Assembly: GCF_023015905.1 (NCBI RefSeq)
Contig: NZ_JALKBD010000001.1
Coordinates: forward strand, 248,001-312,000
From: Arenibacter sp. F20364
GTDB taxonomy: Bacteria; Bacteroidota; Bacteroidia; Flavobacteriales; Flavobacteriaceae
Direction: 5' to 3'
Length of the DNA stretch: 64,000 bases
A program made the translations under genes and the position numbers. The notes beneath the pieces are model-generated. The model saw nothing but the letters and a program-made list of their open reading frames with translations. It searched no databases and was not told the origin of the DNA. Positions 21,801 through 35,702 of the stretch are shown here, piece by piece (position 1 is the first letter of the stretch; each line of letters starts with the position of its first letter).

Positions 21801-22167
21801 ACTTTTCAAGGGAATGATAGAAAAGGTGAACAAAGAAGTCGTCTCCTTCTTGTTTAAGGGAGAACTTCCTACACAGAGTCCGGAAATCCAAGAGGCCAGA
21901 AATATTCGCAGGCCAAAGGAAAATTTAAAGACCTCTAAGGAAGAAATTCCGAACAGTGATGAAATGTCGGCCCAAAGTAGGGCTGTTGGCCAAAATCAAG
22001 GTGGTCGGCCACAGGTAACCGAGACTATTGTTAGGGAAAAGGCCAAAATAGGTAGAAACGAGAGGGTCACCATTAAGAATGTGATGTCCGGCGAAAGCAA
22101 GACGGTCAAATACAAACAAGCGGAACCGCTTTTGGATAAAGGAGAATGGGTAATCATTGAAGACTAG
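18808..22167 (+). CDS. secA: Preprotein translocase ATPase SecA
   Basis: SecA is the motor ATPase of Sec export, bound to SecYEG at the inner membrane. Walker A is [15 protein letters not shown]; Walker B lies in [34 protein letters not shown] and [14 protein letters not shown] are the downstream helicase motifs. The 1119 residues include insertions relative to E. coli (901), as in other Bacteroidota. The C-terminus ([18 protein letters not shown]) lacks the Cys-rich zinc tail. TAATTTTG at 18687-18694 is a possible -7 box. A strong terminator follows 38 bp after the stop. Confidence 0.96.
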
Positions 22168-22205
22168 CCTAGACGCTCTACCGCACTCATCATTAAAGTA
22201 CACAG

Positions 22206-22240
22206 AAAAAAGCGACGTCCTCATAGGCCGTCGCTTTTTT
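22206..22240 (+). terminator. Rho-independent terminator after secA
   Basis: AAAAAAGCGACG (22206-22217) pairs with CGTCGCTTTTTT (22229-22240). The A tract on the left would let it work in both directions. Confidence 0.9.
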
Positions 22241-22471
22241 ATTGTCCAAATTTTAATATATTTATGACAACACTAAGGTTATTTCTTACAGAAAGGTGGA
22301 AATAAAAGTCGAATAAAAGAGATGACGAATTTAAACCTTAAATAAATATAAAATCCAATCTGCTTTATTAAGCGGATTTCCATAAAAGTATTGTTTTGAC
22401 CCTAAAATTCATCGCGCTTTAATTCAAACGATTATCTTTACCTTCATAATACAACCATTAACCAATTTTTA

Positions 22472-23680
22472 ATGCAAATACCCACACTGGATCAGTACCG
22501 ACTAAAGGACAAAGTCCGTTTAACGTTAAGGGTTAACTATATTTCCTCTGTCCTCTCCATTATTTTCGGTATAGTCTGCATATTTTTCCTTAAGATTACC
22601 CAGATAATTCCCACGACTTTTATTGTCTTCGGCACTTTAAATTTGGCCAACACCCTTATGTTTCACAGACACAAACTACTGGGATTAACTTACAATATTA
22701 CATCAATAATGGCCTTGGCATCCTCGGTCATCATTACCATATACAGTGGCGGAATCAACAGCCCCTTTATTTTTGTGCTGGCTTTGGTGGTTTTTGCCGG
22801 ATATATTAGCACCAAAGAATACGGGCGTATTTATTTAAACCTCAATTTACTGATTATCATTCTGATCTACTCCCAGAGTATAGCTGAATTTAATTTTACC
22901 GAAAATGTGGTCCCGGTAGAAAGCAAAAACATGTTCGCCCTTTTTAGCATTCTTTTCTCGGTATACCTTTTGGGTGGCGTCATTGGAAAAAACCTTCTAA
23001 AGGCCCACAACGAATTGCACAAGATTAGAAACGAGAACGAGGCCCGTATTAGGGAAAAAGATACTCTTCTTAAGGAAATTCACCACAGAGTAAAGAATAA
23101 TCTTCAGACCGTATCCAGTTTACTTAGTCTTCAATCCAGAAGCATTGAAGAGCCTAGGATTAAAACTTTGATAAAAAGCAGCCAAAATAGGGTAATTTCA
23201 ATGGCCATGGTACACGAGATGTTGTATATGCGACACGATTTGTCCAAAATTGAATATAAGTCCTATGTGGAAGAATTAAGTGATTATCTGATACGATCCT
23301 TTAAAGGCACGGAAAACAACATCAACCTTAATATCAATATTCCGGATGTTAAACTCGGAATTGATACGGCCATCCCCTTAGGCCTGTTGATCAACGAGGT
23401 AATTACCAACGCCCTTAAATACGGTATAAAGGAAGACGATCAAGGGGAAATATATATTGAACTTGTGAAATTGAACGGTAAGGATTATGTACTTTATATT
23501 GGTGACAATGGGGAAGGCTTTCCAGAGGGTACAAGCCACAAGAATACAAAATCGCTGGGCCTAAAGCTTATACATAATCTTTCACGACAGCTAAAAGGAT
23601 CCATAAACAGGGATTCCTCCAAAAAGGGTACGAACTACATTGTTAAATTTTCCGATATACAGCATCCATTTAAGACCTGA
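22472..23680 (+). CDS. Membrane sensor histidine kinase, HisKA_2 type
   Basis: Residues about 20-190 form six hydrophobic segments without a large periplasmic domain, so a signal would be sensed in or near the membrane. The phosphoacceptor region EIHHRVKNNLQTVSSLLSLQ (His about 204) is the HisKA_2 form. The HATPase_c domain shows NEVITNALKYG and DNGEGFP. It has no receiver or output domain and no response-regulator gene next to it, so it is an orphan kinase. It is convergent with the small minus-strand genes at 23.8-24.2 kb. Confidence 0.85.
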   Translation: MQIPTLDQYRLKDKVRLTLRVNYISSVLSIIFGIVCIFFLKITQIIPTTFIVFGTLNLANTLMFHRHKLLGLTYNITSIMALASSVIITIYSGGINSPFIFVLALVVFAGYISTKEYGRIYLNLNLLIIILIYSQSIAEFNFTENVVPVESKNMFALFSILFSVYLLGGVIGKNLLKAHNELHKIRNENEARIREKDTLLKEIHHRVKNNLQTVSSLLSLQSRSIEEPRIKTLIKSSQNRVISMAMVHEMLYMRHDLSKIEYKSYVEELSDYLIRSFKGTENNINLNINIPDVKLGIDTAIPLGLLINEVITNALKYGIKEDDQGEIYIELVKLNGKDYVLYIGDNGEGFPEGTSHKNTKSLGLKLIHNLSRQLKGSINRDSSKKGTNYIVKFSDIQHPFKT

Positions 23681-23793
23681 TTCTGTAACCAGGTCATGAG
23701 AACATAACCATTTCTAGAATAAGTCTTTATTTCAAACTATAGGAAACTAAGACCAATAGATAATTGGCCTATCAAGGGCAAGGTAGGACTACC

Positions 23794-23913
23794 CTATTCC
23801 CTATCCTTATTTACTGGTACCTTTAAAGGACGTAGACTCCCTTTTGTTTTTGGAAAAACAAGGATATAACTGAAAATTAGAACTACCGCAACCAAAAAAG
23901 TAAATAATATCAT
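23794..23913 (-). CDS. 39-residue membrane microprotein downstream of secreted peptide 1
   Basis: ATG at 23913-23911, stop TAG at 23796-23794. One helix (MILFTFLVAVVLIFSYILV) is followed by FPKTKG and a short polar tail. It lies 53 bp downstream of the peptide gene at 23967-24191. A similar microprotein lies at the matching place behind peptide copy 2 (28940-29086): both start MIL, have one helix and then VFP-x-x-K. That pairing is the main reason to call it a gene. Confidence 0.5.
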   Translation of the reverse strand: MILFTFLVAVVLIFSYILVFPKTKGSLRPLKVPVNKDRE

Positions 23914-23966
23914 AGTGGTCTATTTTAGCACTACCCTGTTTGGAGTAGCAGGTTAAGTATTGATTA

Positions 23967-24191
23967 TTAAGCCAATTTAGCTTTGTTTAATTTGGTAGTA
24001 AAAGACAATTCTTTTGTTACCTTCGAATTTTTGAACATATACAAACGGGCAACACTGTTTTCGTTTTTCACAGTAACTTCTTTAACGATGCTCATGGTAA
24101 CAGTCTCAACCTTAACTTGGGTAGCATCGTTTTGTGCTTGGGCAGCAACTCCGATAAAAAGAACAAAGATTAAAGTTAAAATAGTTTTCAT
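23967..24191 (-). CDS. Small secreted protein, family copy 1
   Basis: 74 residues. The signal peptide is MKTILTLIFVLFIGVAAQAQ with likely cleavage after AQA, leaving about 54 residues rich in Val, Lys and Thr with no Cys. The conserved end is ENSVARLYMFKNS, then TKELSF and TKLNKAKLA. Copy 2 (29132-29356) differs at only 4 of 74 positions; copy 3 (32102-32341) is more diverged. The frame stays open upstream, but the signal peptide fixes the ATG at 24191. A five-box array and a TATATATA tract lie upstream. Function is unknown; export is inferred. Confidence 0.75.
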   Translation of the reverse strand: MKTILTLIFVLFIGVAAQAQNDATQVKVETVTMSIVKEVTVKNENSVARLYMFKNSKVTKELSFTTKLNKAKLA

Positions 24192-24245
24192 GACTTGCGT
24201 TTTCTTATATATATAACTTGCGCAAGTGCATTTTGCAAGGTTCTG

Positions 24246-24368
24246 TTTCGTTGAACAACCCTGTTTCTCGTTAAGCGGAAAAATGTCTGATGAAGTGCAA
24301 AAAACTACCGATAAACGTTTGGGCATTCAAAATCACTATAGCGATAAAAAATGCATTTTATCGATTAC
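24246..24368 (-). promoter_or_regulatory. Five-box upstream array, copy 1
   Basis: Written on the plus strand, the boxes are TTTCGTTGAA (24246), TCTCGTTAAG (24266), TACCGATAAA (24306), TAGCGATAAA (24339) and TATCGATTAC (24359). CG-to-CG spacings are 20, 40, 33 and 20 bp. The array begins 55 bp upstream of the peptide 1 start. The spacings approximate whole helical turns, and the paired 20-bp repeats recall LytTR-type direct repeats. The binding protein is unknown. Confidence 0.55.
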
Positions 24369-24562
24369 CAAGAACGGCGTGAAGCTCTGTTTAAGGCTTT
24401 GATGTAGGCCATGATAGGAAACGTCTTAAATATCAATCTAAAAATATGGCTGATCAATCACCTGTATATCATTGGTTGCCTCTATAAGGAAATAATGGAC
24501 AACAGCTCAATTGATCCAATATGCATAGCCAATTTAATTAAATGTTAAATATTTTCTCATAT

Positions 24563-24583
24563 CAAAGCGACTGCTTAGTTTTG
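24563..24583 (+). promoter_or_regulatory. TetR operator and overlapping promoter, upstream of the regulator gene
   Basis: CAAAGCGACTGCTTAG (24563-24578) matches the operator at 25183 in 13 of 16 positions. Its last three bases begin TAGTTTTG (24576-24583), a perfect TAnnTTTG -7 box. Autorepression is inferred. Confidence 0.6.
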
Positions 24584-24600
24584 TGTTGTATTAGATAGTA

Positions 24601-25164
24601 ATGGCAAGAAGTAAACAATATAACGAAGGGGAGGTAATAGAAAAGGCAATGGGCCTTTTCTGGAAAAATGGCTATGAAAATACCTCCGTTCGTATGTTGG
24701 AAAAAGAAATGGGCATAAACCAATTTTCCATTTATGCCAGTTTTGGCAACAAACATGGTGTTTTCTTGGAAAGCATTAAATACTACAAGAAAAAAATTAA
24801 AATCATCACAGATAAATTGAAAAGATCCAATAATGGAGTAGTTGGTATAAAGCAATACTTCTATGATTTCTTGGATTTTTCTATGGATGATAATTGTAAA
24901 AAGGGCTGCTTGGTGGCCAATACGGTAAACGAATTGGGCGAAAATGGAGACCCAGTTATAATGGATGAGTTGCTAAATTTCTTTAATGAGATTAGGGAAT
25001 TATTTGCATACAACTTGAAACAGGACATTGAAAAAGATGAACCAACCATACAAAAACAAGCTAATTATCTTGGTATTGCCATGTTAGGTTTAACCCCAGC
25101 ATCGAAAATTTTAAGCAAGAAACAACTGGAAGATTATATAGAAACAACCTTCTTAAACCTTTAA
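24601..25164 (+). CDS. TetR/AcrR family transcriptional regulator
   Basis: A 187-residue repressor. The N-terminal HTH spans about residues 10-55 (GLFWKNGYENTSVRMLEKEMGI, then FSIYASFGNKHGVF). The ligand domain contains KKGCLVANTVNELG, a segment often seen in TetR proteins that respond to small electrophilic or toxic compounds. The gene is the first of a plus-strand set with SDR, EthD, FrnE-like and FabF. Near-identical palindromes overlap the promoters of this gene and of the SDR gene, so it most likely represses both. Confidence 0.88.
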   Translation: MARSKQYNEGEVIEKAMGLFWKNGYENTSVRMLEKEMGINQFSIYASFGNKHGVFLESIKYYKKKIKIITDKLKRSNNGVVGIKQYFYDFLDFSMDDNCKKGCLVANTVNELGENGDPVIMDELLNFFNEIRELFAYNLKQDIEKDEPTIQKQANYLGIAMLGLTPASKILSKKQLEDYIETTFLNL

Positions 25165-25182
25165 TATTTTTTTAACTCTAAA

Positions 25183-25203
25183 CTAAGCAAATGCTTAGAT
25201 TTA
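25183..25203 (+). promoter_or_regulatory. TetR operator and overlapping promoter, upstream of the SDR gene
   Basis: CTAAGCA-AA-TGCTTAG (25183-25198) is a perfect 7+2+7 palindrome. Its end overlaps TAGATTTA (25196-25203), one base from TAnnTTTG, in the same register as the site at 24563. Confidence 0.65.
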
Positions 25204-25241
25204 GATTATTATTCACTAAACAATAAATAAAATTAAGAATT

Positions 25242-25976
25242 ATGAGCATTTCAATTGAAAACAAAGTAGCCCTGGTAACAGGAGCCAATAGAGGAATTGG
25301 CAAGTCAATCGTAGAATCTTTTATAAACCATGGTGCCAAAAAAGTATATTTGGCGGTTCGTAACATAGCATCTACCAAAGATTTGGAGGAAAAATATGGG
25401 AATAAGGTCGTAACGGTCAAGGCAGATGTATCCAACACCAAATCCATCCAGGAATTAGCAAATGAAGTTAAAGATGTGGATATTGTAGTGAATAATGCGG
25501 GAGTGGGAATACCCTACCCCACCATTGGAAATGATGTGGAAAAAGATTTTGCCCAACAATTGGAAGTAAATGCTTTCGGTTTGCTCCGTATAGCCAATGC
25601 TTTTGCCGAAACCCTTGAAAAAAATAAAGGAGCCCTGGTACAACTAAACTCAATAGCGTCCATTAAAAACTTCCCTCAACTTTCAACCTATTCCGCTTCA
25701 AAAGCGGCATCCTATTCCTTAACACAAGGTCTAAGGGCTGAGTTGAAGTCTAAAGGCGTAACAGTATTAAGCGTACATCCAGGTCCTATCGCTACCGACA
25801 TGGGAGCGGCTGCCGGTTTTGACAATGGAGCCTCAACTTCCATTGTTTCCGAGGGTATTGTAGAAGCCCTGAAGGCGGGGGATTTCCATCTATTTCCCGA
25901 CGAAATGGCCAAACAGTTTGAAGGTGCTTATCAGGGATTTTCAGATAACGTGGTTATGGCCGATTTTTCGGAATAG
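25242..25976 (+). CDS. Short-chain dehydrogenase/reductase
   Basis: NAD(P)-dependent oxidoreductase of 244 residues with a Rossmann fold. The cofactor motif is TGANRGIG (about 13-20), the NNAG motif is VVNNAGVG, and the catalytic Tyr and Lys lie in YSASKAA. The substrate is not shown by sequence. It is the first gene of the structural part of the TetR-controlled operon, 35 bp before the EthD gene. Confidence 0.85.
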   Translation: MSISIENKVALVTGANRGIGKSIVESFINHGAKKVYLAVRNIASTKDLEEKYGNKVVTVKADVSNTKSIQELANEVKDVDIVVNNAGVGIPYPTIGNDVEKDFAQQLEVNAFGLLRIANAFAETLEKNKGALVQLNSIASIKNFPQLSTYSASKAASYSLTQGLRAELKSKGVTVLSVHPGPIATDMGAAAGFDNGASTSIVSEGIVEALKAGDFHLFPDEMAKQFEGAYQGFSDNVVMADFSE

Positions 25977-26011
25977 CATTGATAAAAGGAATATAAATTA
26001 AATGCACGGTT

Positions 26012-26320
26012 ATGATTAAATTAACTGTAATGTACCCGAATACAGACGAGCTGCTATTCGATCAAGAATACTACATAAACGAACACGGTCAATTGCTTAT
26101 GGATCTATTGGGCGATGCTATTATAACCTCCGACATTAATATTGGCATATCAGGTGGAAGTCAAGGCGAACCCGCACCATATGTGGTAATCACCAACCTC
26201 ACTTTTGCATCGCCCGAATCTTTTCAACAATCGTTTGGAGCAAATGCCGAAAAAATATTGGCGGATCTCCCTAACTTTACCAATGTAAGTCCGAAAGTGC
26301 AGATAAGTGAGGTGTACTAG
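26012..26320 (+). CDS. EthD family protein
   Basis: A 102-residue ferredoxin-like (dimeric alpha-beta barrel) protein. The start IKLTVMYPN, the segment FDQEYYINEHGQL and the end NFTNVSPKVQISEVY are typical of EthD-type proteins, named after an ether-degradation protein but mostly of unknown activity. In operons with an SDR and a thiol oxidoreductase it may handle a reactive carbonyl or aromatic compound; that is inference. Confidence 0.8.
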   Translation: MIKLTVMYPNTDELLFDQEYYINEHGQLLMDLLGDAIITSDINIGISGGSQGEPAPYVVITNLTFASPESFQQSFGANAEKILADLPNFTNVSPKVQISEVY

Positions 26321-26407
26321 ATTGGAACTATAATTGAATAAGGAAGAAAATTAAGTTTTTTAGGTTTTTCCCTCGCTAACAAAAAGTATAAATAATCGTA
26401 TATAACA

Positions 26408-27052
26408 ATGACAGATAAAATTAAACTGGATATTATTTCCGATGTGGTCTGCCCTTGGTGCACCATAGGCTACAAACGTCTGGAAAAAGCAATTGCCGAA
26501 CTGGGTATAGAGGACAAAATTGAGATTGAATGGCAACCTTTTGAACTGAATCCGAATATGCCAAAAGAAGGTCAGAATGTCCAGGAACACATATCAGAGA
26601 AATATGGCTCCAGTTCGGAAGACCAAAAACGCTCCCAAGAATACATGATCGAAGCTGGGGCTGAACTTGGTTTTACATTCGATTATTTTGATGGAATGAG
26701 AATTGTAAATACCAGGGATGCCCACATTCTGTTGGAATATGCAAAAGAATATGGCAAACAGACCGAACTCAAAATGCGATTGGTGACTGCATTTTTTAGT
26801 GAAAGAAAAGATGTTTCGGATAGGGACATACTTCTTCAGGAACTGAAAGCGGTAGGCTTAAGTACCGACGAGGGGATAGCCAGATTGGATAGTGACGATG
26901 CGCGTTACCAGGTACGTACACAGGAAACATACTGGCAAAGTCTTGGGGTTTCTTCGGTGCCCACTATGGTATTTAATAAGAAAAGTGCCCTAACCGGGGC
27001 GCAGCCTATTGACGTATACAAAGAAGTACTGACGGAATTCCTTAAAGCATAA
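26408..27052 (+). CDS. DsbA-family oxidoreductase (FrnE-like)
   Basis: A 214-residue cytoplasmic thioredoxin-fold protein of the FrnE/2-hydroxychromene-2-carboxylate isomerase-like branch. The active site is CPWC (residues 15-18) after a short beta strand. The helical insertion contains YGKQTELKMRLVTAFFSE and the cis-Pro loop is SSVPTMVFNKK. There is no signal peptide. Relatives protect against oxidative stress or act as glutathione-type transferases. It is the third structural gene of the TetR-controlled operon. Confidence 0.86.
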   Translation: MTDKIKLDIISDVVCPWCTIGYKRLEKAIAELGIEDKIEIEWQPFELNPNMPKEGQNVQEHISEKYGSSSEDQKRSQEYMIEAGAELGFTFDYFDGMRIVNTRDAHILLEYAKEYGKQTELKMRLVTAFFSERKDVSDRDILLQELKAVGLSTDEGIARLDSDDARYQVRTQETYWQSLGVSSVPTMVFNKKSALTGAQPIDVYKEVLTEFLKA

Positions 27053-27101
27053 GAATACTATATGCCCTTATTGATTGGGGATTAATCTAAAAATTCAAAA
27101 T

Positions 27102-28343
27102 ATGAGACGAGTAGTGATTACAGGATTGGGAGCCTTGACCCCAATAGGAAATTCAGCGAATGAATTTTGGGAAAGTGCTATTGATGGCAAAAATGGATTC
27201 TCAAGAATCACCAAGTTCGACCCATCAGCCTTTAAAACAACCTTCGCCGGCGAATTAAAAGATTTTGCTCCCGAAAAATACCTTGATCGCAACGAAATAA
27301 AAAGAAGCGACCCATTTACCCATTACGCCATCTATTCCACAACTGAAGCATTCCAAGATAGTGGACTAGACCTGGATACCATTTCCCCTTTTGATATTGG
27401 CGTAATATGGGGAACAGGCCAGGGAGGCATGAAAACTTTTGAAGAGGAAGTAAAGAACTACACCCAAGGAGGAATGAATCCCCGTTTTAATCCCTTTTTT
27501 ATCCCTAAACTCCTGGCAAATATGGCATCGGGAATGATCGCTATGAAATTTGGACTAATGGGAATTAATTATACTGCCGTTTCGGCCTGCGCATCCTCCA
27601 GCTCGGCAATCATGGATGCCTTTAATTATATTCGTTTAAACAAGGCAAAAATCATGGTTACAGGAGGATCCGAAGCTCCAATAACCGAAGCCTCTATAGG
27701 TGGTTTTAACTCCATGAAGGCCTTGTCAACCCGAAATGAAGATCCTCAACAGGCATCAAGGCCATTTGATGAGGAAAGGGACGGGTTTGTAATGGGCGAA
27801 GGGGCCGGTGCCCTGATTCTTGAAGAATATGAACATGCTAAAAAGCGTGGGGCAAAAATCTATGCCGAAATAGTAGGAGCTGCCATGACCGATGACGCCT
27901 ACCACATTTCGGCCACACACCCTGAAGGTATCGGCGCCATAAAAGCCATGCAATTGGCTATGGAGGAAGCCAAACTAAATCCGGACGAGATCAATTATTT
28001 AAACACCCACGCTACCTCTACCCCAGTGGGCGACTTAAGCGAGATAAAAGCCGTTGCAAAAACCTTTAACAACAAATCCAAAAACCTTAAAATAAGCGCC
28101 ACAAAGTCTATGACAGGGCATCTATTGGGAGCGGCAGGGGCGGTAGAAGCCATTTTATCCATAAAGGCAATTCAAAACAATATAATACCTCCAACCATTA
28201 ACACCACTAAGGTCGATTCCAATATTCCCGCAGCAATGCCTATTGTAATTAAACAAGCTATTGACCACAGTGTAAATGTGGCCATGAGCAATACTTTTGG
28301 CTTTGGAGGGCACAATGCAACCACAATATTTAAAAAAATATAA
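27102..28343 (+). CDS. fabF: Beta-ketoacyl-ACP synthase II (FabF type)
   Basis: Elongating ketosynthase of 413 residues. The Cys-His-His triad is complete: SACASSSSA, NTHATSTPVGD and KSMTGHLLGAAGAVEA. GFGGHNATTIF closes the protein. The ATG at 27102 (MRRVVITGLGALTPIGN) is preferred to the TTG nine codons upstream. It is the last gene of the TetR set, 49 bp after the FrnE-like gene. It lies outside the pigment cluster and need not serve it; it could be a second FabF for membrane lipid adjustment. Confidence 0.88.
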   Translation: MRRVVITGLGALTPIGNSANEFWESAIDGKNGFSRITKFDPSAFKTTFAGELKDFAPEKYLDRNEIKRSDPFTHYAIYSTTEAFQDSGLDLDTISPFDIGVIWGTGQGGMKTFEEEVKNYTQGGMNPRFNPFFIPKLLANMASGMIAMKFGLMGINYTAVSACASSSSAIMDAFNYIRLNKAKIMVTGGSEAPITEASIGGFNSMKALSTRNEDPQQASRPFDEERDGFVMGEGAGALILEEYEHAKKRGAKIYAEIVGAAMTDDAYHISATHPEGIGAIKAMQLAMEEAKLNPDEINYLNTHATSTPVGDLSEIKAVAKTFNNKSKNLKISATKSMTGHLLGAAGAVEAILSIKAIQNNIIPPTINTTKVDSNIPAAMPIVIKQAIDHSVNVAMSNTFGFGGHNATTIFKKI

Positions 28344-28686
28344 TCCTTTGGACGATAAAATCATAGGAAAGGAAGCATATTCCTATTCTCGCCACCATGG
28401 TGATCGCACTCTATGTACATTTTCATTCTGATGTAGCTGCGGAGGTATTGCTTTTTGAAAGTCAACCTCCCAAATTAAGGCTAGTTAACTTGATATTGAC
28501 TTTTATAAATCTGTACATTTATAGAAATACATTGGCGCACAAAACTTATTGGAACAAAAAGGCTCATATTTTCATGGGGAAATTTGAGCCTTTTTGTTAA
28601 CTTATAACCAACCCATGTTATCTGCAATCATTTCAGGCACCATGGAATTAAGGGCCACAAAACCGCTAAAAATAAAACTGACAGAT
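28344..28686. other. Gene-free stretch with a terminator
   Basis: About 340 bp follow fabF. The only supported element is the terminator at 28556-28595. An open frame at 28397-28600 has no family resemblance and runs through that terminator. Confidence 0.5.
28556..28595 (+). terminator. Rho-independent terminator
   Basis: AAAAAGGCTCA (28556-28566) pairs with TGAGCCTTTTT (28585-28595) around an 18-nt loop. It would end the TetR-controlled transcript, about 210 bp after fabF. Confidence 0.8.
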
Positions 28687-28926
28687 ATGAAAACTATGAC
28701 GTGCAAACAATTGGGAGGAGCCTGTGACATGAAGTTTCATGCAAATTCATTTGAGGAAATAGCTGAACAGAGTAAAAAGCATGGTATGGAAATGTTCCAA
28801 GCGGGTGACAAAGCACATCTTGCGGCTATGAATAAAATGCAGGAACTTATGAAATCGCAGGATGCCATGACCAAATGGTTTAATGACAAAAGAAAAGAAT
28901 TCGACAGCCTTCCCGATAGCATATAA
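28687..28926 (+). CDS. DUF1059 domain protein
   Basis: 79 residues starting MKTMTCKQLGGACDMKFHA. The family pattern of CK-LGG-CD, then FHA-SFEEIAE-S-KHG--MF, is clear. The C-terminal third (MKSQDAMTKWFNDKRKEFD) is a helix typical of the flavobacterial members. The frame is open for 31 codons further upstream, but that part overlaps a terminator, so the ATG at 28687 is chosen. Function is unknown. It is convergent with the microprotein and peptide genes that follow. Confidence 0.8.
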   Translation: MKTMTCKQLGGACDMKFHANSFEEIAEQSKKHGMEMFQAGDKAHLAAMNKMQELMKSQDAMTKWFNDKRKEFDSLPDSI

Positions 28927-28939
28927 TAGTGTTTCTACT

Positions 28940-29086
28940 TTAACGTACTACCAAAAGGAAGTTTCGGAATTTTTCATCAATTTGTACAGGCTCCTTGGAT
29001 ATATGCCCATTTTCCTTTGCTTCGGGAAAAACAACCATATAATTTAGACAGATACATATAGGGACAAGAAGTGCAATTAATATCAT
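28940..29086 (-). CDS. 48-residue membrane microprotein downstream of secreted peptide 2
   Basis: ATG at 29086-29084, stop at 28942-28940. One helix (MILIALLVPICICLNYMVV) is followed by FPEAKE and a polar tail. It starts 45 bp downstream of peptide copy 2 and resembles the microprotein behind copy 1 (start MIL, one helix, VFP-x-x-K). The matching position is the main support. Confidence 0.5.
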   Translation of the reverse strand: MILIALLVPICICLNYMVVFPEAKENGHISKEPVQIDEKFRNFLLVVR

Positions 29087-29131
29087 GATGCTTTATTTAG
29101 CGCTTTATTCTATGGAGCCTAAGTTTAAGTA

Positions 29132-29356
29132 TTAAGCCAATTTAGCTTTGTTCAATTTTGTAGAGAAAGACAATTCTTTGGTAATCTTGGAATTTTTGAA
29201 CATATACAAACGGGCAACACTGTTTTCGTTTTTCACAGTAACTTCTTTAACGATGCTCATGGTCACAGTCTCAACCTTAACTTCGGTAGCATCATTTTGT
29301 GCTTGGGCAGCTACTCCGATAAAAAGAATAAAGATTAAAGTTAAGATGGTTTTCAT
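29132..29356 (-). CDS. Small secreted protein, family copy 2
   Basis: 74 residues, identical to copy 1 at 70 positions (V10I, Q25E and two conservative changes near the C-terminus). It has the same signal peptide and the same C-terminal block ending TKLNKAKLA. The leader between the array and the ATG is also nearly unchanged, including CACTTG, AGTTATATATATAAG and the ACGCAAGTC just before the start. The closeness suggests recent duplication or gene conversion of the whole unit, regulatory region included. Confidence 0.75.
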   Translation of the reverse strand: MKTILTLIFILFIGVAAQAQNDATEVKVETVTMSIVKEVTVKNENSVARLYMFKNSKITKELSFSTKLNKAKLA

Positions 29357-29410
29357 GACTTGCGTTTTCTTATATATATAACTTGCACAAGTGTATTTTG
29401 ACAGGTTCTG

Positions 29411-29533
29411 TTTCGTTGAACAACCCTGTTTCTCGATAAGCGGAAAAATGTCTGATGAAGTGCAAAAAACTACCGATAAACGCCAGGACATTCAAAATCA
29501 CTTTAGCGATAAAAAAAGTAATTCAGCGATATT
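29411..29533 (-). promoter_or_regulatory. Five-box upstream array, copy 2
   Basis: Plus-strand boxes: TTTCGTTGAA (29411), TCTCGATAAG (29431), TACCGATAAA (29471), TAGCGATAAA (29504), CAGCGATATT (29524). Spacings are 20, 40, 33 and 20 bp. The array starts 55 bp from the peptide 2 start codon, exactly as in copy 1. Confidence 0.55.
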
Positions 29534-29680
29534 TATAGGTATCTCCCGTCACGGTTGATGACTTTTAATTGTAATTTTCTTCTCGGAAATTAAGGAAATG
29601 ACAAAAAAATTCCATGTGCTCTTGGGGATTATCCCGAACTTTATATCCGTTTTCCAGCATTTATTTAATAACAATCAAAA

Positions 29681-30322
29681 TTGGACCGCTACAAAGAAAC
29701 ATTCGAAACTTGGAACCAAATGGATTGTTTATATCAGGACAAATTCATGGATCTGGACTTGTATAATGATAGTTATGACCTTATTTGTAAATCGTTGACA
29801 AAAAAAATGCCTCAATATTAGAGATTGGTTGTGGTCCTGGGAACATAACAAGATATCTATTATCCAAAAGACCAGATTATAACATCTTGGGAATCAACAT
29901 TGCGCCCAACATGATTTTATTGGCCACAAAAAAACAATCCAACCGCTAATTTCGAGATAATGGATTGTCGGCGGATCGGCGAATCTGATACCTTGTTTGA
30001 CGGCATCATTGGTGGTTTTTGTCTGCCATATCTCTCCCACGATAATTGTGTTCAATTAATTGCCGAATCGCGAAAATTACCTTCAAACAAAGGACTGCTC
30101 TACTTAAGTTTTGTAGAAGGAGACTCAAACAACTCTGGCTTCAAGGTTGGCAGTAATGGAAACAGGGTATATTTCCATTACCATAATTTGAAACAACTAA
30201 AGGAACTTCTTGCCCTCCATGCTTTCGAAGACTCTGAGGTGTATCAGATAAATTACCACAGAACCGGGACTCTAACAGAAAGGCATACAGTCCTAATATG
30301 CCAAAAAAAAAGTATAACATAA
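29681..30322 (+). pseudogene. Class I SAM-dependent methyltransferase, broken by two frameshifts
   Basis: Three frames join into one methyltransferase. The first part (DRYKETFETWNQ onward) runs from a TTG at 29681 to an A8 run at 29800-29807. There the frame shifts to SILEIGCGPGNITRYLL, which is motif I. A second shift occurs in the A7 run at 29928-29934. The third part, from FEIMDCRRIGESDTLFDGI through GLLYLSFVEG to the stop at 30322, is intact. Both breaks are in homopolymers, so a sequencing error or programmed slippage cannot be excluded, but a relic is simplest. It lies divergent from peptide copy 2. Confidence 0.75.
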
Positions 30323-30357
30323 AAAAAGTCCAAAACTGTTGTACAATAATTTTATTA

Positions 30358-30373
30358 ATCGTAATATTGCGAT
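30358..30373 (+). promoter_or_regulatory. ArsR-type operator
   Basis: ATCGTAATATTGCGAT is a near-perfect inverted repeat of the form ATCG-n8-CGAT. TAATATTG inside it is one base from TAnnTTTG. It ends 17 bp before the arsR ATG, which fits autoregulation. Confidence 0.6.
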
Positions 30374-30390
30374 ATACAAATGAAGTAAAA

Positions 30391-30723
30391 ATGGGTTTAG
30401 CTAAAACAGAAATATTTTCCGACCAACAAAACGAAATTGCCAGCTTTGCCAAAGTCTTTGGACATCCGGCTAGGGTAGCTATACTGCAACATATATTTAA
30501 AATAGATACCTGTGTTTGTGGAGATTTGGTTAGCGAAATAGGGTTGGCCCAACCCACCATTTCACAACATCTCAAAGAATTAAAACATTTGGGACTTATT
30601 AAGGGCAGTGTTGAAGGGACCAGCGTCTGTTATTGTATTGACCTTGATAAATGGTTGAACATGAAGGAAATATTAAATCAATTTCTTAATCAAGATACCC
30701 TCAAGCAGGGGGATTGGTGCTAA
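30391..30723 (+). CDS. ArsR/SmtB family transcriptional regulator
   Basis: A 110-residue winged-helix repressor. The HTH is GLAQPTISQHLKELKHLGLI, and the metalloid-binding type of motif appears as DTCVCGDLV on the preceding helix, as in ArsR (CVC). The ATG at 30391 follows the operator; a longer frame starting at 30298 overlaps the upstream pseudogene and is rejected. It is the first gene of an arsenic-type trio with the DUF6428 and ArsC-like genes. Confidence 0.87.
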   Translation: MGLAKTEIFSDQQNEIASFAKVFGHPARVAILQHIFKIDTCVCGDLVSEIGLAQPTISQHLKELKHLGLIKGSVEGTSVCYCIDLDKWLNMKEILNQFLNQDTLKQGDWC

Positions 30724-30771
30724 AAAAATAAATTCATTTAACGTATACTCTCACAATTAATAAAGAATATT

Positions 30772-31245
30772 ATGAAACTATCAGAGGTAAAAACAATTTT
30801 GGGAAATCTGGACACTATAGCATTTCAATTGCCCAATGGCACATTAGTGCCCAATCATTTTCACGTCACGGAAGTAGGAAAAATTACGAAGCATTTCATA
30901 GACTGTGGTGGAACGGTACGTAATGAGGAGGTTGTAAACTTTCAGCTATGGGATTCCGACGATTATGACCACCGACTACATCCTGAGAAATTGGTCCATA
31001 TTATAGAACTATCCGAAAAAATATTGGAAATTGGCGATTTGGAAATAGAAGTCGAATACCAAGGTGAAACCATCCAAAAATTTGGCTTGGACTTTGACGG
31101 CGCCAATTTTCTTCTAAGCACCAAACAAACAGATTGCCTGGCCAGGGAAAAATGTGGTATTCAAGAAGAAAAACCCAAAGTAAAGTTATCCCAATTACAA
31201 GGAGCCTCAAATAACTGCTGTGCTCCTGACTCCGGATGCTGCTAA
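30772..31245 (+). CDS. DUF6428 family protein
   Basis: A 157-residue soluble protein. The start MKLSEVKTILGNLDTIAFQL and the core segment HFHVTEVGKITKHFIDCGGT are typical of DUF6428 proteins, which in Bacteroidota sit between ArsR and ArsC. The last residues (NNCCAPDSGCC) form a Cys-rich tail that could bind a metalloid or metal. Biochemical function is unknown; a role in arsenic handling is inferred from the context. Confidence 0.78.
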   Translation: MKLSEVKTILGNLDTIAFQLPNGTLVPNHFHVTEVGKITKHFIDCGGTVRNEEVVNFQLWDSDDYDHRLHPEKLVHIIELSEKILEIGDLEIEVEYQGETIQKFGLDFDGANFLLSTKQTDCLAREKCGIQEEKPKVKLSQLQGASNNCCAPDSGCC

Positions 31246-31276
31246 ACCATTAAACCACAGTATAAATTCATATTCC

Positions 31277-31909
31277 ATGACGACAGTAAAAACGAAGCTT
31301 TTTGAGAATATCGAGAAGGTTATCTCTACCCTAAGTACTGCCAATATAAGCAACGAACGCAAAGAAGTTTTACAGCCTCTTGCAGATCATATACAGTTCA
31401 AAACAAATTCCCAAGAACCCATAAGAATTAATTTCATATGCACCCATAATTCCAGAAGGAGTCATTTATCCCAAGTCTGGGCACAAACAATGGCATTCTA
31501 TTTCAATGTAAAGAATGTGCACTGTTATTCAGGGGGAACTGAATCTACCGCCCTATTCCCTATGGTGGCACAAACCCTAGGAACTTCCGGGTTTCAAATA
31601 AAGACCCTGTCCAAAGGAGAAAATCCAATTTACAGTATAAAATATGCCGACAATGAACCTGCTGTGATTGGTTTTTCAAAGAAACTGGATGATAACTTTA
31701 ATCCAAAATCTGAATTTGCCGCCGTTATGACCTGTTCACAGGCCGATGGGGGCTGCCCGTTTATAGCTGGTGCTGAAAAGCGAATTCCGATCACCTTTGA
31801 AGACCCTAAGGAATTCGACAATACCCCACAGCAGGCCAAAAAGTACCAAGAGAGAAGCTATCAAATCGCTACGGAATTGTTGTACATATTTGCTCAAATA
31901 AAATCCTAA
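31277..31909 (+). CDS. Low-molecular-weight phosphatase-like arsenate reductase
   Basis: 210 residues with the LMW-PTP P-loop CTHNSRRS (C-x5-R-S), preceded by RINFI. The Asp-containing loop expected near the C-terminus is probably ITFEDPKEFD. An extended N-terminal helix (about 45 residues) precedes the P-loop, as in flavobacterial relatives annotated as arsenate reductase or protein-tyrosine-phosphatase. The ATG at 31277 is preferred to an upstream one that overlaps the DUF6428 end. No arsenite exporter (Acr3 or ArsB) follows. Confidence 0.8.
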   Translation: MTTVKTKLFENIEKVISTLSTANISNERKEVLQPLADHIQFKTNSQEPIRINFICTHNSRRSHLSQVWAQTMAFYFNVKNVHCYSGGTESTALFPMVAQTLGTSGFQIKTLSKGENPIYSIKYADNEPAVIGFSKKLDDNFNPKSEFAAVMTCSQADGGCPFIAGAEKRIPITFEDPKEFDNTPQQAKKYQERSYQIATELLYIFAQIKS

Positions 31910-32101
31910 TTAATTGCCTCGAGGAAAAAATTAAGCTGTACGGAGAGTTACCATTACCAATGCATCTCAAACCCATGACCATGAGACCGGTCTTAACAGA
32001 TTTTATTAACTTTCATGAAGCCTTCAAACATCTTAAAGTGGGTCCTAGCCTATTCCATTTGACATTTAGAGAAAAGGTTGATAATTGAGGACCAACCCCA
32101 A

Positions 32102-32341
32102 TTAGGCCAATTTGGACTTATTCAATTTTGTAGAGAAAGTCAATTCTTTGGTAATGTGGGAGTTTTTGAACAAAAATAAACGGGCAACACTGTTTTCGTT
32201 TATTATGGGCACTTCTTGTTTTGCAGTAGCATTAACGATTGTTGCACTAATAGTCTCAACCTTAACTTCGGCAGTATCGTTTTGAGCCTGGGCAGCTACT
32301 CCGATAAAAAGAAAAAAGATTAAAGCTAAGATAGTTTTCAT
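32102..32341 (-). CDS. Small secreted protein, family copy 3 (diverged)
   Basis: 79 residues. The signal peptide MKTILALIFFLFIGVAAQAQ is close to copies 1 and 2. The middle differs and is five residues longer (about residues 31-45). The C-terminal block ENSVARLFLFKNS, then TKELTFSTKLNKSKLA, is conserved, which suggests this block carries the function. There is no matching membrane microprotein behind it. The gene is convergent with the arsenate reductase and divergent from the methyltransferase at 32771. Confidence 0.75.
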   Translation of the reverse strand: MKTILALIFFLFIGVAAQAQNDTAEVKVETISATIVNATAKQEVPIINENSVARLFLFKNSHITKELTFSTKLNKSKLA

Positions 32342-32395
32342 GACTTGCGTTTTGCTATCTATATAACTCACCCAAGTGTATCTCAGCGGGTACTG

Positions 32396-32519
32396 AATCG
32401 ATGAAAAGCAATATTTCTCGATAATCGGATAAAAATCGGACGAAGTGTTAAAAAACATCGATTAACGTCAAATCCAAACAAATCATTTTATCGATAAAAT
32501 TATGCATTTCATCGGTCAA
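32396..32519 (-). promoter_or_regulatory. Five-box upstream array, copy 3
   Basis: Plus-strand boxes: AATCGATGAA (32396), TCTCGATAAT (32416), CATCGATTAA (32456), TATCGATAAA (32489), CATCGGTCAA (32510). Spacings are 20, 40, 33 and 21 bp. The sequence between boxes has diverged from copies 1 and 2 while boxes and spacing are kept, the pattern expected of binding sites. Confidence 0.6.
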
Positions 32520-32606
32520 TGTAAGTGTTTACCTACATTAAAAACTCTTCAATTTTAAGATCCTGCGATCAAAAAGTCAGAAACCGTAGAATTCCTTCCA
32601 TTTAAT

Positions 32607-32707
32607 AGTCAATTACCTCAGGGCAAGCCCTTGAGGCATCAGAAGGAAACTACTAATAACATTTCAACGACGGCCTGCCCGTATTCGTTCAGGCGGGCGT
32701 CGGAGCA
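32607..32707 (+). repeat. Dispersed hairpin repeat, copy B (short form)
   Basis: Second copy of the repeat at 4147-4269. CCTCA-GGGC (32616-32624) pairs with GCCCTTGAGG (32627-32636), with one bulged base and an AA loop. A GC-rich right arm around 32670-32700 ends with GTCGGAGCA. It lies between the array of peptide copy 3 and the methyltransferase at 32771. Confidence 0.6.
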
Positions 32708-32770
32708 ATTTAGTATCGATTATCGAGCAAATGAATTCCAATAATATTCCCTGCTTATTACTTTTGTAAT

Positions 32771-33532
32771 ATGAAAAAAGCCTTGGACCGTTTTTCCCAA
32801 CAATCAAAAATCTATAAAGACTATCGGCCCACCTACCCTGAGGAGCTGTTTAAGTATATATACTCCTTTTGTAATGCCTGGCATACTAGTTGGGACTGTG
32901 GTACCGGTAACGGTCAAGTGGCCGCCATACTATCCCATGCCTTCGATCAGGTTTTTGCCACCGACATAAGCCAAGAACAAATTCAATATGCCATTCCCAA
33001 ACCAAACATAATCTATAGAGTTCAAAGAGCCGAAAAGACCACATTTCCAAATCACTATATTGATTTGATTACAGCGGCCCAAGCCGTACATTGGTTTCAT
33101 CTTCCCAGCTTTAACAAGGAAGTTAATAGAGTTTTAAAACCCGATGGCATTATTGCTATTTGGGGTTACGGACTTCTAAAAATAAATCCAGAAATAGATG
33201 CCATTGTGAATCACTTTTATCAACATATCATAGGGGAATATTGGGATAAGGAAAGGAAACACATAGATCAAAACTACAGTACCATTCTATTTAATTTTAA
33301 TGAGGTGGAAATCAAGAAGACTTTTAAAATTGAAACCCAATGGACAATCGATCAATTGAAGGGTTATTTTAACTCCTGGTCCAGTGTACAAACTTATAAA
33401 GAAAAGAACAAGGGCGACAATCCGGTAGAAAAACTTTTAGCGGCCATAGCCCCCAAATGGAATAAAGAAATACAACATATAACCTTCCCAATTTTTCTAC
33501 GAATTGGTACCCCAATCAAGTCAACAGATTAA
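32771..33532 (+). CDS. Class I SAM-dependent methyltransferase
   Basis: 253 residues. Motif I is DCGTGNGQVAAILS, the acidic loop is ATDISQEQI, and AAQAVHWFHLPSFNKEVNRV is the post-core segment seen in UbiE/trans-aconitate-type methyltransferases. The substrate cannot be read from the sequence. The gene stands alone between the hairpin repeat and a convergent MFS transporter. Confidence 0.82.
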   Translation: MKKALDRFSQQSKIYKDYRPTYPEELFKYIYSFCNAWHTSWDCGTGNGQVAAILSHAFDQVFATDISQEQIQYAIPKPNIIYRVQRAEKTTFPNHYIDLITAAQAVHWFHLPSFNKEVNRVLKPDGIIAIWGYGLLKINPEIDAIVNHFYQHIIGEYWDKERKHIDQNYSTILFNFNEVEIKKTFKIETQWTIDQLKGYFNSWSSVQTYKEKNKGDNPVEKLLAAIAPKWNKEIQHITFPIFLRIGTPIKSTD

Positions 33533-33591
33533 ATATTGATTTTATACAATCGCCAATTTCACCAACAATATTCACTTTTCACCATTATATG

Positions 33592-34800
33592 TTAGGCAGC
33601 AGCCAATATGGTACGCCTCCTCATCAACATAAAAATTCCCAAGGAAACCGCACCACAAACAGAAAAACCTATAAAAAGCGGAAGTGTGGTGCCCACCACA
33701 AAACTACCTATGTAGGTAGCTATGGGAATAGCGATCATTGTGGAAATAAAGCCTGTAATGGCCGCGCCAATTCCAGCAATATGCCCTATTGGTTCCATGG
33801 CAATGGCTCTGAGATTACCGAACAGGAATCCCAACGTAAAAAATTGCATTGCCAAAAAGGTAATCAATACCCACAAACTTGGGTTTTGCGAATTCCAGAA
33901 TAGAATAACATATACAATTGATATTGTACAAAACAATGTCATGGCAATCCAGGCCAGTCTTCTCATACCCAATTTAACCACCATGGTACCATTTAACAAG
34001 GTAGATAACCCTACAGATACGGCCAAACCGGCAAAAACATACGGAAAGTTGCCGGCCAAACCGTACTGACCTTCGAATATTTCCTGTGCAGAACTTAAAT
34101 ACACCATAAAGGCGCCTGTAATTAGTCCCGATACTATCGTAAAAGCCATAGTTTCCCGATGCCGGAGCAATTCCTTAAATCCGTCAACAAACACATTACT
34201 GGAAAATTTAATCTTATATTCGGGGTTTAAAGTTTCTGGTTGCCTTCTCCAAAACCAAACACCCACCACTGTTGCAGCTACCAATTGCATATAAAATATA
34301 GCCTCCCAACCATAGTGATCCAAGAAAAACTTTCCCATAGCCGGAGCCACAATAGGCACCAAAATAAAGAATGCCGTAACAAAAGACATAATTTTGGCCA
34401 TATAATCCCCCTTATAGGAATCACGTATCATGGATATGCTTATAGTTCTTGGAGCAGACAGCCCTATTCCTTGAAGGATCCTTCCCAATATCATCCACTC
34501 CAATGAGGGGGCAAGTACACATATAACACTGGCCACACAAAACACAATGAAACCTATATACACAATAGGCTTCCTCCCAAAACTATCCGATAAGGGCCCA
34601 AAAACCAGTTGTCCCACGCCCAATCCCAAAAAAATCATTGTAATAAACTTTTGATTTTCAGTAGGGTCCAAACTGTTGATATCTATCCCTATTGTAGACA
34701 TTGCTGGCAACAGGGTGTCAATGGCCAGTGCTACAATGGACATTAGGGAGGCCATAATGGCAACAAATTCGAACTGTGGTCGTTGCTGACTTTTTTGCAT
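33592..34800 (-). CDS. Bcr/CflA family multidrug efflux MFS transporter
   Basis: 402 residues with 12 predicted membrane helices. The MFS motif A between TM2 and TM3 is GPLSDSFGRKPIVYIGF, and TM1 has the DTLLPAMSTIG feature typical of Bcr/CflA. The substrate may be a drug or an amino acid. There is no regulator next to it. It is divergent from the exported protein at 35038 with a 237-bp AT-rich gap that probably holds both promoters. Confidence 0.87.
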   Translation of the reverse strand: MQKSQQRPQFEFVAIMASLMSIVALAIDTLLPAMSTIGIDINSLDPTENQKFITMIFLGLGVGQLVFGPLSDSFGRKPIVYIGFIVFCVASVICVLAPSLEWMILGRILQGIGLSAPRTISISMIRDSYKGDYMAKIMSFVTAFFILVPIVAPAMGKFFLDHYGWEAIFYMQLVAATVVGVWFWRRQPETLNPEYKIKFSSNVFVDGFKELLRHRETMAFTIVSGLITGAFMVYLSSAQEIFEGQYGLAGNFPYVFAGLAVSVGLSTLLNGTMVVKLGMRRLAWIAMTLFCTISIVYVILFWNSQNPSLWVLITFLAMQFFTLGFLFGNLRAIAMEPIGHIAGIGAAITGFISTMIAIPIATYIGSFVVGTTLPLFIGFSVCGAVSLGIFMLMRRRTILAAA

Positions 34801-35037
34801 CCGCCAAAATTACACATACGGAACAATATTTACCCCATAAATTATGGGAAATAACAAAACGATAACATTTTAAAAATTACACAAAACCCTGACTTCTTGA
34901 TGATTACAAAATCCACACTTGTAAGTCACATATGCATTTGGCACATATATTTAAGACGAAGGAAAAATTAATTCCAAGAAGGTCACCTTAAATTATATTT
35001 CCCATACATTTGAAGCTATAAACACTAATTAAATATT

Positions 35038-35646
35038 ATGAAAATCAATTTTATCATTGCACTATTACTTTTGTGCTCTGCAAGTAGTTATGGTCAAAAA
35101 CTAAAAGTTAAACAAGGAGATTTTAATTTTATTAAGGGTCAGAAGGAAATAAACGTAGAGTTTGTCTATGACAATATGACGCTTTTAAAAAAGAACCTAT
35201 CCAATGAAGATTATGTAAAGGAACATTCTGCTGAATTGGAAGAAAAAACTCGTGGAAAAGGTACCTCTTGGGAAAAAAGCTGGTATGCTAGCAGGGAATT
35301 GATCTATGCCCCAAAATTTTTGGAATTAATGAATAGATACCTATATGAAGACCATAACGTATTTTTTGCTGAGAATTTAACGGATGCCAAGTACACGCTT
35401 ATTGTAGAAACGGTATGGGTATATCCAGGCTGGGACGCTGGGGTTATGAAACAGCCCGCAAAGGTAAGCACCCTATTAAAATTTGTAGAGACCAACAATA
35501 AGGACAATGTAATGTTGGAAGTGTCAAGCCAAAATGCACCGGGTGACCAGTGGGGAAGCTCGTTTAGCAATGAAGACCGATTAGGGGAAGGGTATGCCAA
35601 AACCGGAAAATCCTTTGCCAAATTAATTTTAAAGAAAGGATTTTAG
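35038..35646 (+). CDS. Exported protein of unknown function
   Basis: A signal peptide is clear (MKINFIIALLLLCSASSYGQ, likely cleaved after YG). The mature 183 residues begin KLKVKQGDFNFIKGQKEINV and show a mixed alpha/beta pattern with aromatic residues (WEKSWYASRELIYAP, VWVYPGWDAG). I do not recognise a domain beyond similarity in style to flavobacterial hypothetical proteins. It is the last gene before the pigment cluster and is separated from it by a shared terminator. Confidence 0.65.
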   Translation: MKINFIIALLLLCSASSYGQKLKVKQGDFNFIKGQKEINVEFVYDNMTLLKKNLSNEDYVKEHSAELEEKTRGKGTSWEKSWYASRELIYAPKFLELMNRYLYEDHNVFFAENLTDAKYTLIVETVWVYPGWDAGVMKQPAKVSTLLKFVETNNKDNVMLEVSSQNAPGDQWGSSFSNEDRLGEGYAKTGKSFAKLILKKGF

Positions 35647-35671
35647 ATCATGTCTATTTTTAAGTGACTAC

Positions 35672-35702
35672 AAAAAGTGAATGAGAACATCATTCACTTT
35701 TT
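35672..35702. terminator. Shared bidirectional terminator
   Basis: AAAAAGTGAATGA (35672-35684) pairs perfectly with TCATTCACTTTTT (35690-35702) around GAACA. A tracts and T tracts flank both sides. The right arm contains the stop codon of the minus-strand halogenase-like gene. Confidence 0.85.

Follow-up and report, generated by a model that had tools for sequence, protein, structure and literature searches.

What reads the arrays of short DNA boxes that stand before three secreted-peptide genes of Arenibacter sp. F20364? The window is the whole stretch of 64,000 nucleotides that was analysed (contig NZ_JALKBD010000001.1, positions 248,001 to 312,000), and the original prediction had described in it, upstream of each peptide gene, five boxes close to TAYCGATAAA at a fixed spacing. 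We found that this is a real, selected promoter array that is specific for the peptide family, and that it contains six sites in three pairs.

All three arrays read on the minus strand. Copy 1 occupies positions 24244..24368, copy 2 29409..29536 and copy 3 32394..32522, and they were matched with 86.4, 84.6 and 74.7 bits, respectively, by R1, a sequence-only model built from an alignment of 50 arrays (A1, described below). In the direction of the gene, boxes 1 to 3 of copy 1 have their CG at 24362, 24342 and 24309, a CG-less box 4, located from A1, lies at 24286-24299, and the CGs of the last two boxes are at 24269 and 24249. The corresponding positions are 29527, 29507, 29474, the CG-less box at 29451-29464, 29434 and 29414 in copy 2, and 32513, 32492, 32459, box 4 at 32436-32449, 32419 and 32399 in copy 3. 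The CG-to-CG distances were as first reported, 20/40/33/20 in copies 1 and 2 and 20/40/33/21 in copy 3. Each ATG (A at 24191, 29356 and 32341) has its nearest CG at a distance of 58 bp, in agreement with a first box that begins 55 bp from each start codon. TAYCGATAAA with no more than one mismatch occurred 33 times in the window, against 12.8 ± 3.3 expected and a maximum of 22 in 100 shuffles; in the whole genome, a short two-box pattern gave six matches versus two for its reversed control, an uninformative difference. Copies 1 and 2 were the same at 115 of 130 positions. Copies 1 and 3 shared 78 of 130, and 37 of 48 within four 12-bp boxes, a comparison that omitted the fifth box, shifted by 1 bp. 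The divergence claimed for the sequence between the boxes of copy 3 thus holds only in part. The spacers across the 50 arrays are also fairly conserved (pairwise identity 0.56, versus 0.63 in the boxes), so that a single footprint probably extends over more than 10 bp.

The five CG boxes are all present, and the count was nonetheless one short. A sixth box lies inside the 40-bp gap, at distances of 21 bp to box 3 and 19 bp to box 5. Its + strand sequence is TCTGATGAAGTGCA, without a CG, in copies 1 and 2, and TCGGACGAAGTGTT in copy 3, where the CG is displaced one base from its usual place. Most arrays have no CG in box 4; its spacings of 21 and 19 bp were retained in 49/50 and 50/50 aligned arrays. 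A diverged paralog outside A1 (locus L116) had a CG in all six boxes, at a spacing of 21/33/21/19/21 bp. The box unit is approximately TCGATAAAATG. When box profiles were compared in both directions, jointly with a related four-box element described below, the orientation >><<<< for the six-box array with >><< for the four-box element was the best of 512 assignments, scoring 314 bits, ahead of the next at 275 and of all boxes in one direction at 155; the centre of box 4 had been placed by hand before this comparison. The array is made of three same-direction pairs, boxes 1 and 2 pointing toward the gene, and 3 and 4, as well as 5 and 6, pointing away from it, and does not form a single run of direct repeats. 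Reverse-strand self-matches of some arrays were consistent with these mixed directions. With centres at about 20, 53, 74, 93 and 114 bp from the first, and with 10.5 bp to a turn, all six boxes would be near the same helix face, by arithmetic only.

The layout was then followed across the peptide family, which is present in 72 of 397 Flavobacteriaceae genomes (43/237 genera). At 49 loci with named records, the family belonged to Arenibacter, Maribacter, Saonia, Pseudozobellia, Croceitalea, Croceivirga, and unclassified Flavobacteriaceae or Bacteroidetes bins. When the fetched loci were searched with a profile, 190 distinct genes of the family were recovered, 182 of them with at least 200 bp upstream and 99 non-redundant at 75% identity. 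The CG test covered all 87 non-redundant upstream regions of 215 bp or more whose genes matched at E<1e-22; the remaining 12 of the 99 were more distant or short, and several of these retain the boxes only partly, as judged by eye. All five CGs stood at 0/20/53/93/113 (±1) in 69 of the 87, four in 15, three in two, and two in one, while dinucleotide-shuffled upstream regions had five in 0.4% and four in 10.8% of cases. The CG-CG distances with the largest excess over dinucleotide shuffles were 93, 40, 33, 73, 94, 7, 21, 61 and 20, the excess at 7 coming, by eye, at least partly from a second CG near box 3. The alignment A1 consists of 50 sequences picked by hand from the first 64 of 86 (L081 had been dropped earlier), so its conservation figures are somewhat flattering. 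It has 16 invariant columns, mostly within or beside the boxes, and its successive intervals are 20 (41/50, otherwise 21), 33 (47, otherwise 32), 21 (49, otherwise 20), 19 (50/50) and 21 bp (36/50, otherwise 20), with no deviation beyond 1 bp. Retention of the same spacing across many genera supports the proposal that it is under selection. The original prediction would have been abandoned for a spacing lost in other genomes, or for boxes no commoner than chance before peptide genes; the 50 aligned arrays and the 69 of 87 upstream regions, set against 0.4% of the shuffles, showed neither.

The array proved to be almost confined to this family. Strong R1 matches (E<1e-10) were found in 69 of the 72 peptide-bearing genomes and in none of the 325 others; the first figure is partly so by construction because R1 was built from A1, which does not apply to the second. 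The peptide-bearing genomes with no strong array (G057, G360 and G381) had the three weakest peptide matches (1e-4 to 4e-4). At E<=0.01, R1 matched 228 of the 397 genomes, and the 159 of these that fall between 1e-10 and 0.01 were read only in part. In the genome of the window, an assembly of 5.74 Mb, R1 had four strong matches (E<=1.8e-20): the three arrays of the window and C43:113-240. The last of these stands before another gene of the family, whose start is cut and which adjoins an msrA-like gene. The next matches were C106:58311 (2e-5), a reverse reading of the C43 array (3e-4) and C11:158156 (0.0025). The first of these (G000:C106:58311-58420, L133) looks like a decayed array; the 29-codon open reading frame (ORF) that it precedes contains a single hydrophobic stretch, and no peptide of the family was seen there. 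A protein search also found a fourth family gene at C120:28833-29066, with only 33 bp upstream before the contig ends. The assembly breaks at further peptide copies, at the end of C120 and the start of C43, probably because of a collapsed repeat; contig C6 of the sister genome G212 holds two tandem copies.

A related four-box element was found through R1, in 26 genomes picked for weak R1 matches. Nineteen of the 26 matches were one homogeneous element, TCGATTAAATGCA, 20 bp, TCGATAAAATG, 29 bp, AACGATTA, 21 bp, TTTAACATT, and these make up the set A2; L183, L190, L192 (a family peptide gene of G360), L195, L196, L197 and L204 were omitted as different or unclear. At the 19 A2 loci, the element begins where a divergent sixA-like gene has its first codons, mostly with ppk or ppx beyond, and is directed at a gene that encodes a secreted protein. 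It is followed by a promoter-like stretch and then by a conserved leader. This leader (19 A2 loci, within L179-L203) reads TAAATGACCCCAAATCAAAAATATATTAAT.AATCCATT..GCATTG....CAATGC.CTTCCCTCA, a stem-loop or a short ORF (MTPNQKYIN..), and Rfam gave nothing at gathering score in 20 scanned loci, the four-box leader included. In longer stretches (L238-L241 and L247), a gene for a large protein came first and PorP/SprF-like and OmpA-like genes followed; Pfam recognised CHU_C in L238 and L239, PorP_SprF in L238, L239 and L241, and OmpA in L238. A model of the element, R2, matched 106 of the 397 genomes at E<=1e-3 (78/237 genera), with no match in the genome of the window. Below 1e-9, it matched none of the 72 peptide genomes, and no genome of the 397 carried both a strong six-box and a strong four-box match; weak four-box matches (E<=1e-3) occurred in 8 of the 72, some at the six-box arrays themselves. 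The element is mostly single, or a tandem pair, in each genome. Tandem modules were seen in several genera (G200:C19:176391-176722, G368:C33:346909-347239, and also in G232, G261 and G038). Both elements share the unit, the orientations of the first four boxes and the pair spacings of 20 and 21 bp, whereas the shorter one differs in having four boxes, 29 rather than 33 bp between the facing pairs, a conserved leader and another target, an operon for a CHU_C adhesin with PorP/SprF and OmpA proteins that lies beside sixA in other genera. The shared unit, orientation and pair spacing suggest that one regulator or close relatives probably read both, although part of the likeness arises by construction, since the four-box element was found through R1.

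We explain the array best as a six-site DNA operator that apparently adjoins, on the upstream side, the core promoter of each peptide gene. The pair spacing of 20-21 bp amounts to two helical turns and would fit a dimer on two same-direction half-sites; three dimers of one regulator, bound cooperatively, would activate the secreted-peptide gene. The most likely regulator would be a LytTR-type response regulator encoded elsewhere in the genome, with a HisKA_2 histidine kinase as the likeliest input. We infer protein binding, activation rather than repression, the dimers, the promoter position, the LytTR identity and the signalling from kinase through regulator to peptide, and that three LytTR-type dimers on this operator activate the peptide gene is a proposal we consider evenly balanced between right and wrong. 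LytTR dimers bind two direct repeats of 9-10 bp with spacers of 11-12 bp, as described in the part of PMC2766830 that deals with such sites. That corresponds to about 20-22 bp between starts, and all three pairs were at 20-21 bp in the 50 arrays. Moreover, the genome of the window encodes 20 LytTR proteins.

Two of these LytTR proteins are candidate regulators. The first (G000:C181:9429-10115, Pfam LytTR) has no kinase beside it and adjoins rpsF-rpsR-rplI-like genes, named by eye. Its ortholog (E<=1e-65) was found in 49/49 six-box and 53/55 four-box genomes, against 123 of 200 others (Fisher 1.6e-14); both four-box genomes that miss it are less than 90% complete. In this comparison, arrays were counted at E<1e-10 and four-box elements at E<1e-9; the genome lists for the LytTR and kinase co-occurrences were compiled by hand, with the 304 and 369 Flavobacteriaceae genomes assumed to be G000-G303 and G000-G368, and all tests in this analysis are uncorrected for phylogeny. 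The second, candidate B (G000:C106:5921-6613, with a menA-like neighbour), had an ortholog at E better than 1e-100 in 20/20 six-box, 0/20 four-box and 0/12 genomes with neither, and distant matches of 1e-45 to 1e-31 in some genomes. In G184, candidate B adjoins a different HisKA_2 kinase (L291); for this reason, and because it fits the peptide clade only, it was kept as a second candidate and not chosen.

The candidate sensor is a HisKA_2 histidine kinase of 402 amino acids at 22472..23680 on the + strand (Pfam HisKA_2 1.2e-27 and HATPase_c), convergent with the copy 1 gene and with an N-terminal half that is hydrophobic by eye; its link to the array is one that we infer. Members of its protein cluster occurred in 30 of 90 loci; only the clusters of the peptides and of an msrA-like protein were larger (names by eye). 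Close orthologs, at a cut of about E<1e-60, were present in 60 of 62 peptide genomes and in 6 of 307 others; at 1e-40, 114 of the 369 genomes matched. Peptide and kinase genes were both present in 15 of 20 fetched kinase regions, 0.2-15 kb apart. More distant HisKA_2 kinases adjoin LytTR regulators (L290, L291 and, in the genome of the window, L305). Three paralogous HisKA_2 kinases lie between secA and the peptide genes at L256, L257 and L259-L261.

Several results weigh against a LytTR-type operator driven by this kinase. The LytTR half-site consensus is [TA][AC][CA]GTTN[AG][TG], and it matched 16 times in the 50 arrays, compared with 8.8 ± 2.8 in 200 mononucleotide shuffles, the largest of which also gave 16; 12 of the 16 matches fell at a single place in the array. 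The LytTR resemblance initially noted is thus supported by the same-direction pairs at 20-21 bp, by the 20 LytTR proteins and by the HisKA_2 kinases adjoining LytTR regulators, but not by the sequence consensus, and because of this last result we do not claim LytTR membership. Conservation through the spacers would also fit a regulator with longer half-sites. The ortholog of the C181 protein was present as well in 123 of 200 genomes with no strong array. As for the kinase, its nearest paralogs elsewhere adjoin receiver-only proteins and not LytTR (seven loci; Pfam for L276), and only one of 308 proteins in the 20 kinase regions resembled the response-regulator queries, at L271, where no peptide gene was seen; in the 15 regions with both kinase and peptide, no protein resembled the three queries (phmmer E<=1e-3). 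Six genomes had the kinase and no detected peptide, and G256 carries it at the same place, beside secA, with no peptide gene detected. The co-occurrence of kinase, peptide and array could be explained by shared ancestry alone, because the peptide genomes look like one clade.

The alternative that survives best is an operator for another protein that binds tandem half-sites, such as an AraC/XylS-type regulator, for which the usual layout is a direct repeat of 17-bp half-sites, spaced about 21 bp and overlapping the -35 region. It would account for the mismatch with the LytTR consensus, for the letters fixed some 9-12 bp from box centres, e.g., GCAC.TT between boxes 3 and 4, where columns C78, T81 and T82 of A1 are invariant, and for spacers nearly as conserved as the boxes (0.56 versus 0.63). 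No direct counter-evidence was met, the neighbouring proteins having been clustered without a scan for AraC or other DNA-binding families, and we regard this explanation as possible but rather unlikely. Binding sites of a nucleoid or architectural protein, or recombination sites serving the tandem gene copies, would suit a family that is tandemly duplicated and dispersed and a box core that is nearly palindromic; we consider them very improbable, since the 5.7-Mb assembly has only four strong arrays, all before the peptide family, and a genome mostly has just one four-box element or a tandem pair, which, where read, precedes an adhesin operon. A transcribed leader RNA, i.e., an attenuator or riboswitch, appears less probable still. 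The array does lie directly 5' of the start codons, and about 125 bp would be a suitable length, but RNAalifold predicted no base pair in the 50 arrays, Rfam had no match in window positions 20000-36000, the spacing runs in two-turn steps, and promoter-like TAnnTTTA/G words stand between array and ATG in many members (by eye, uncounted). With no predicted RNA structure and no Rfam match, the array is most likely a DNA element. Finally, the idea that the three copies share their layout only through recent duplication, suggested by the closeness of copies 1 and 2 and by the location of all three within one 8-kb stretch, is refuted by the retention of the spacing, with its invariant columns, in the 50 arrays of many genera and in the 69 non-redundant upstream regions, which leaves it a negligible chance. 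The array, its spacing and orientation, and its near-exclusive link to the peptide family are directly established, as are the related four-box form before adhesin operons and the fact that no RNA fold is predicted. On present evidence the array behaves like a tandem LytTR operator, but the result for the sequence consensus keeps us from classing it as one.

The genes behind the arrays are all on the minus strand, and the protein of each begins like a signal peptide: copy 1 at 23967..24191 (74 amino acids, starting with MKTILTLIFVLFIGVAAQAQ), copy 2 at 29132..29356 (74 amino acids, 95% identical to copy 1) and copy 3 at 32102..32341 (79 amino acids, 73% identical to copy 1). Their predicted mature peptides have 54-59 residues and a conserved cationic end, with the family consensus VARLYKFKNSRVKKALSFTTKRNKAKLA. 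For the copy 1 peptide, AlphaFold2 gave an N-terminal helix only and low confidence for the remainder (mean predicted local distance difference test score 58.6), and searches of Pfam and NCBIfam returned nothing above cut-off for the peptide, which may have a signal, antimicrobial or envelope function. A second tiny ORF with one transmembrane-like stretch lies 3' of copy 1 (23794..23913, minus strand, 39 amino acids) and of copy 2 (28940..29086, minus strand, 48 amino acids), and none follows copy 3. Such an ORF was found within 140 bp 3' of 37 of 98 family genes versus 2.9% of shuffled downstream regions, with other examples at L029, L038, L086 and L105; a loose pattern, MILF..VFPKTKG.LRPLKVPVK, described 17 of them. 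Beside copy 2, on the + strand, a methyltransferase-like frame (family by eye) at 29681-30322 is split into two ORFs (29681-29821 and 29960-30322) and is perhaps a broken gene. Between copies 2 and 3, positions 30298-31909 (+) hold, by eye, an ArsR-like regulator and a low-molecular-weight phosphatase-like (arsenate reductase-like) protein.

In the open-licence literature, we found no described regulon with this layout, as the original prediction had supposed. The AgrA sites at P2/P3 are one example of LytTR activator sites. Another from the AlgR/AgrA/LytR family is that of SilA in the streptococcal sil locus, which, in the part of PMC2766830 concerned with it, resembles the array in its same-direction half-sites about 20-21 bp apart, its place upstream of a secreted-peptide gene and the histidine kinase gene nearby. 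Unlike such sites, which have one or two pairs, the array combines three pairs that differ in direction, six sites in all, at conserved gaps, its box sequence differs from the consensus, and no adjacent regulator gene was seen. With regard to Agr-type systems, a secreted peptide lies near a histidine kinase gene both in the window, where copy 1 neighbours the kinase at 22472-23680, and in the 15 of 20 kinase regions. The kinase combines HisKA_2 with HATPase_c, whereas the AgrC type of LytTR quorum systems, as portrayed in the relevant part of PMC8895600, has HATPase_c_5 and no HisKA; within the 15 kinase and peptide regions, a response regulator in the same operon or cluster was not found either. 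As to the four-box targets, the remFG-sprCDBF promoters of Flavobacterium psychrophilum offer a parallel in the transcriptional control of a SprB-type adhesin operon in Flavobacteriaceae, which the portion of PMC9723704 on these promoters attributes to sigma-54 and an SM5 sigma motif; no comparable array is described in that portion.

Few regulators of Flavobacteriaceae with a mapped operator seem to be known, an impression rather than a survey. The array offers a near-complete operator grammar of unit, direction and spacing ahead of its protein, in two natural designs, the six-box peptide promoters and the four-box adhesin promoters. With very few strong targets in each genome, the regulator should be recoverable with one DNA fragment. 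On a more speculative view, which we consider unlikely, these parts would form a peptide signalling circuit in Gram-negative marine flavobacteria. Tandem genes would encode secreted peptides with about 55 mature residues and a cationic end, in many cases with a tiny membrane peptide encoded behind them; HisKA_2 membrane kinases would be the receptors, and an unlinked LytTR regulator would act through the six-site operator, a combination of parts not known before. If kinase, peptide and array do belong to one circuit, this would add peptide communication to a group for which hardly any such system has been described.

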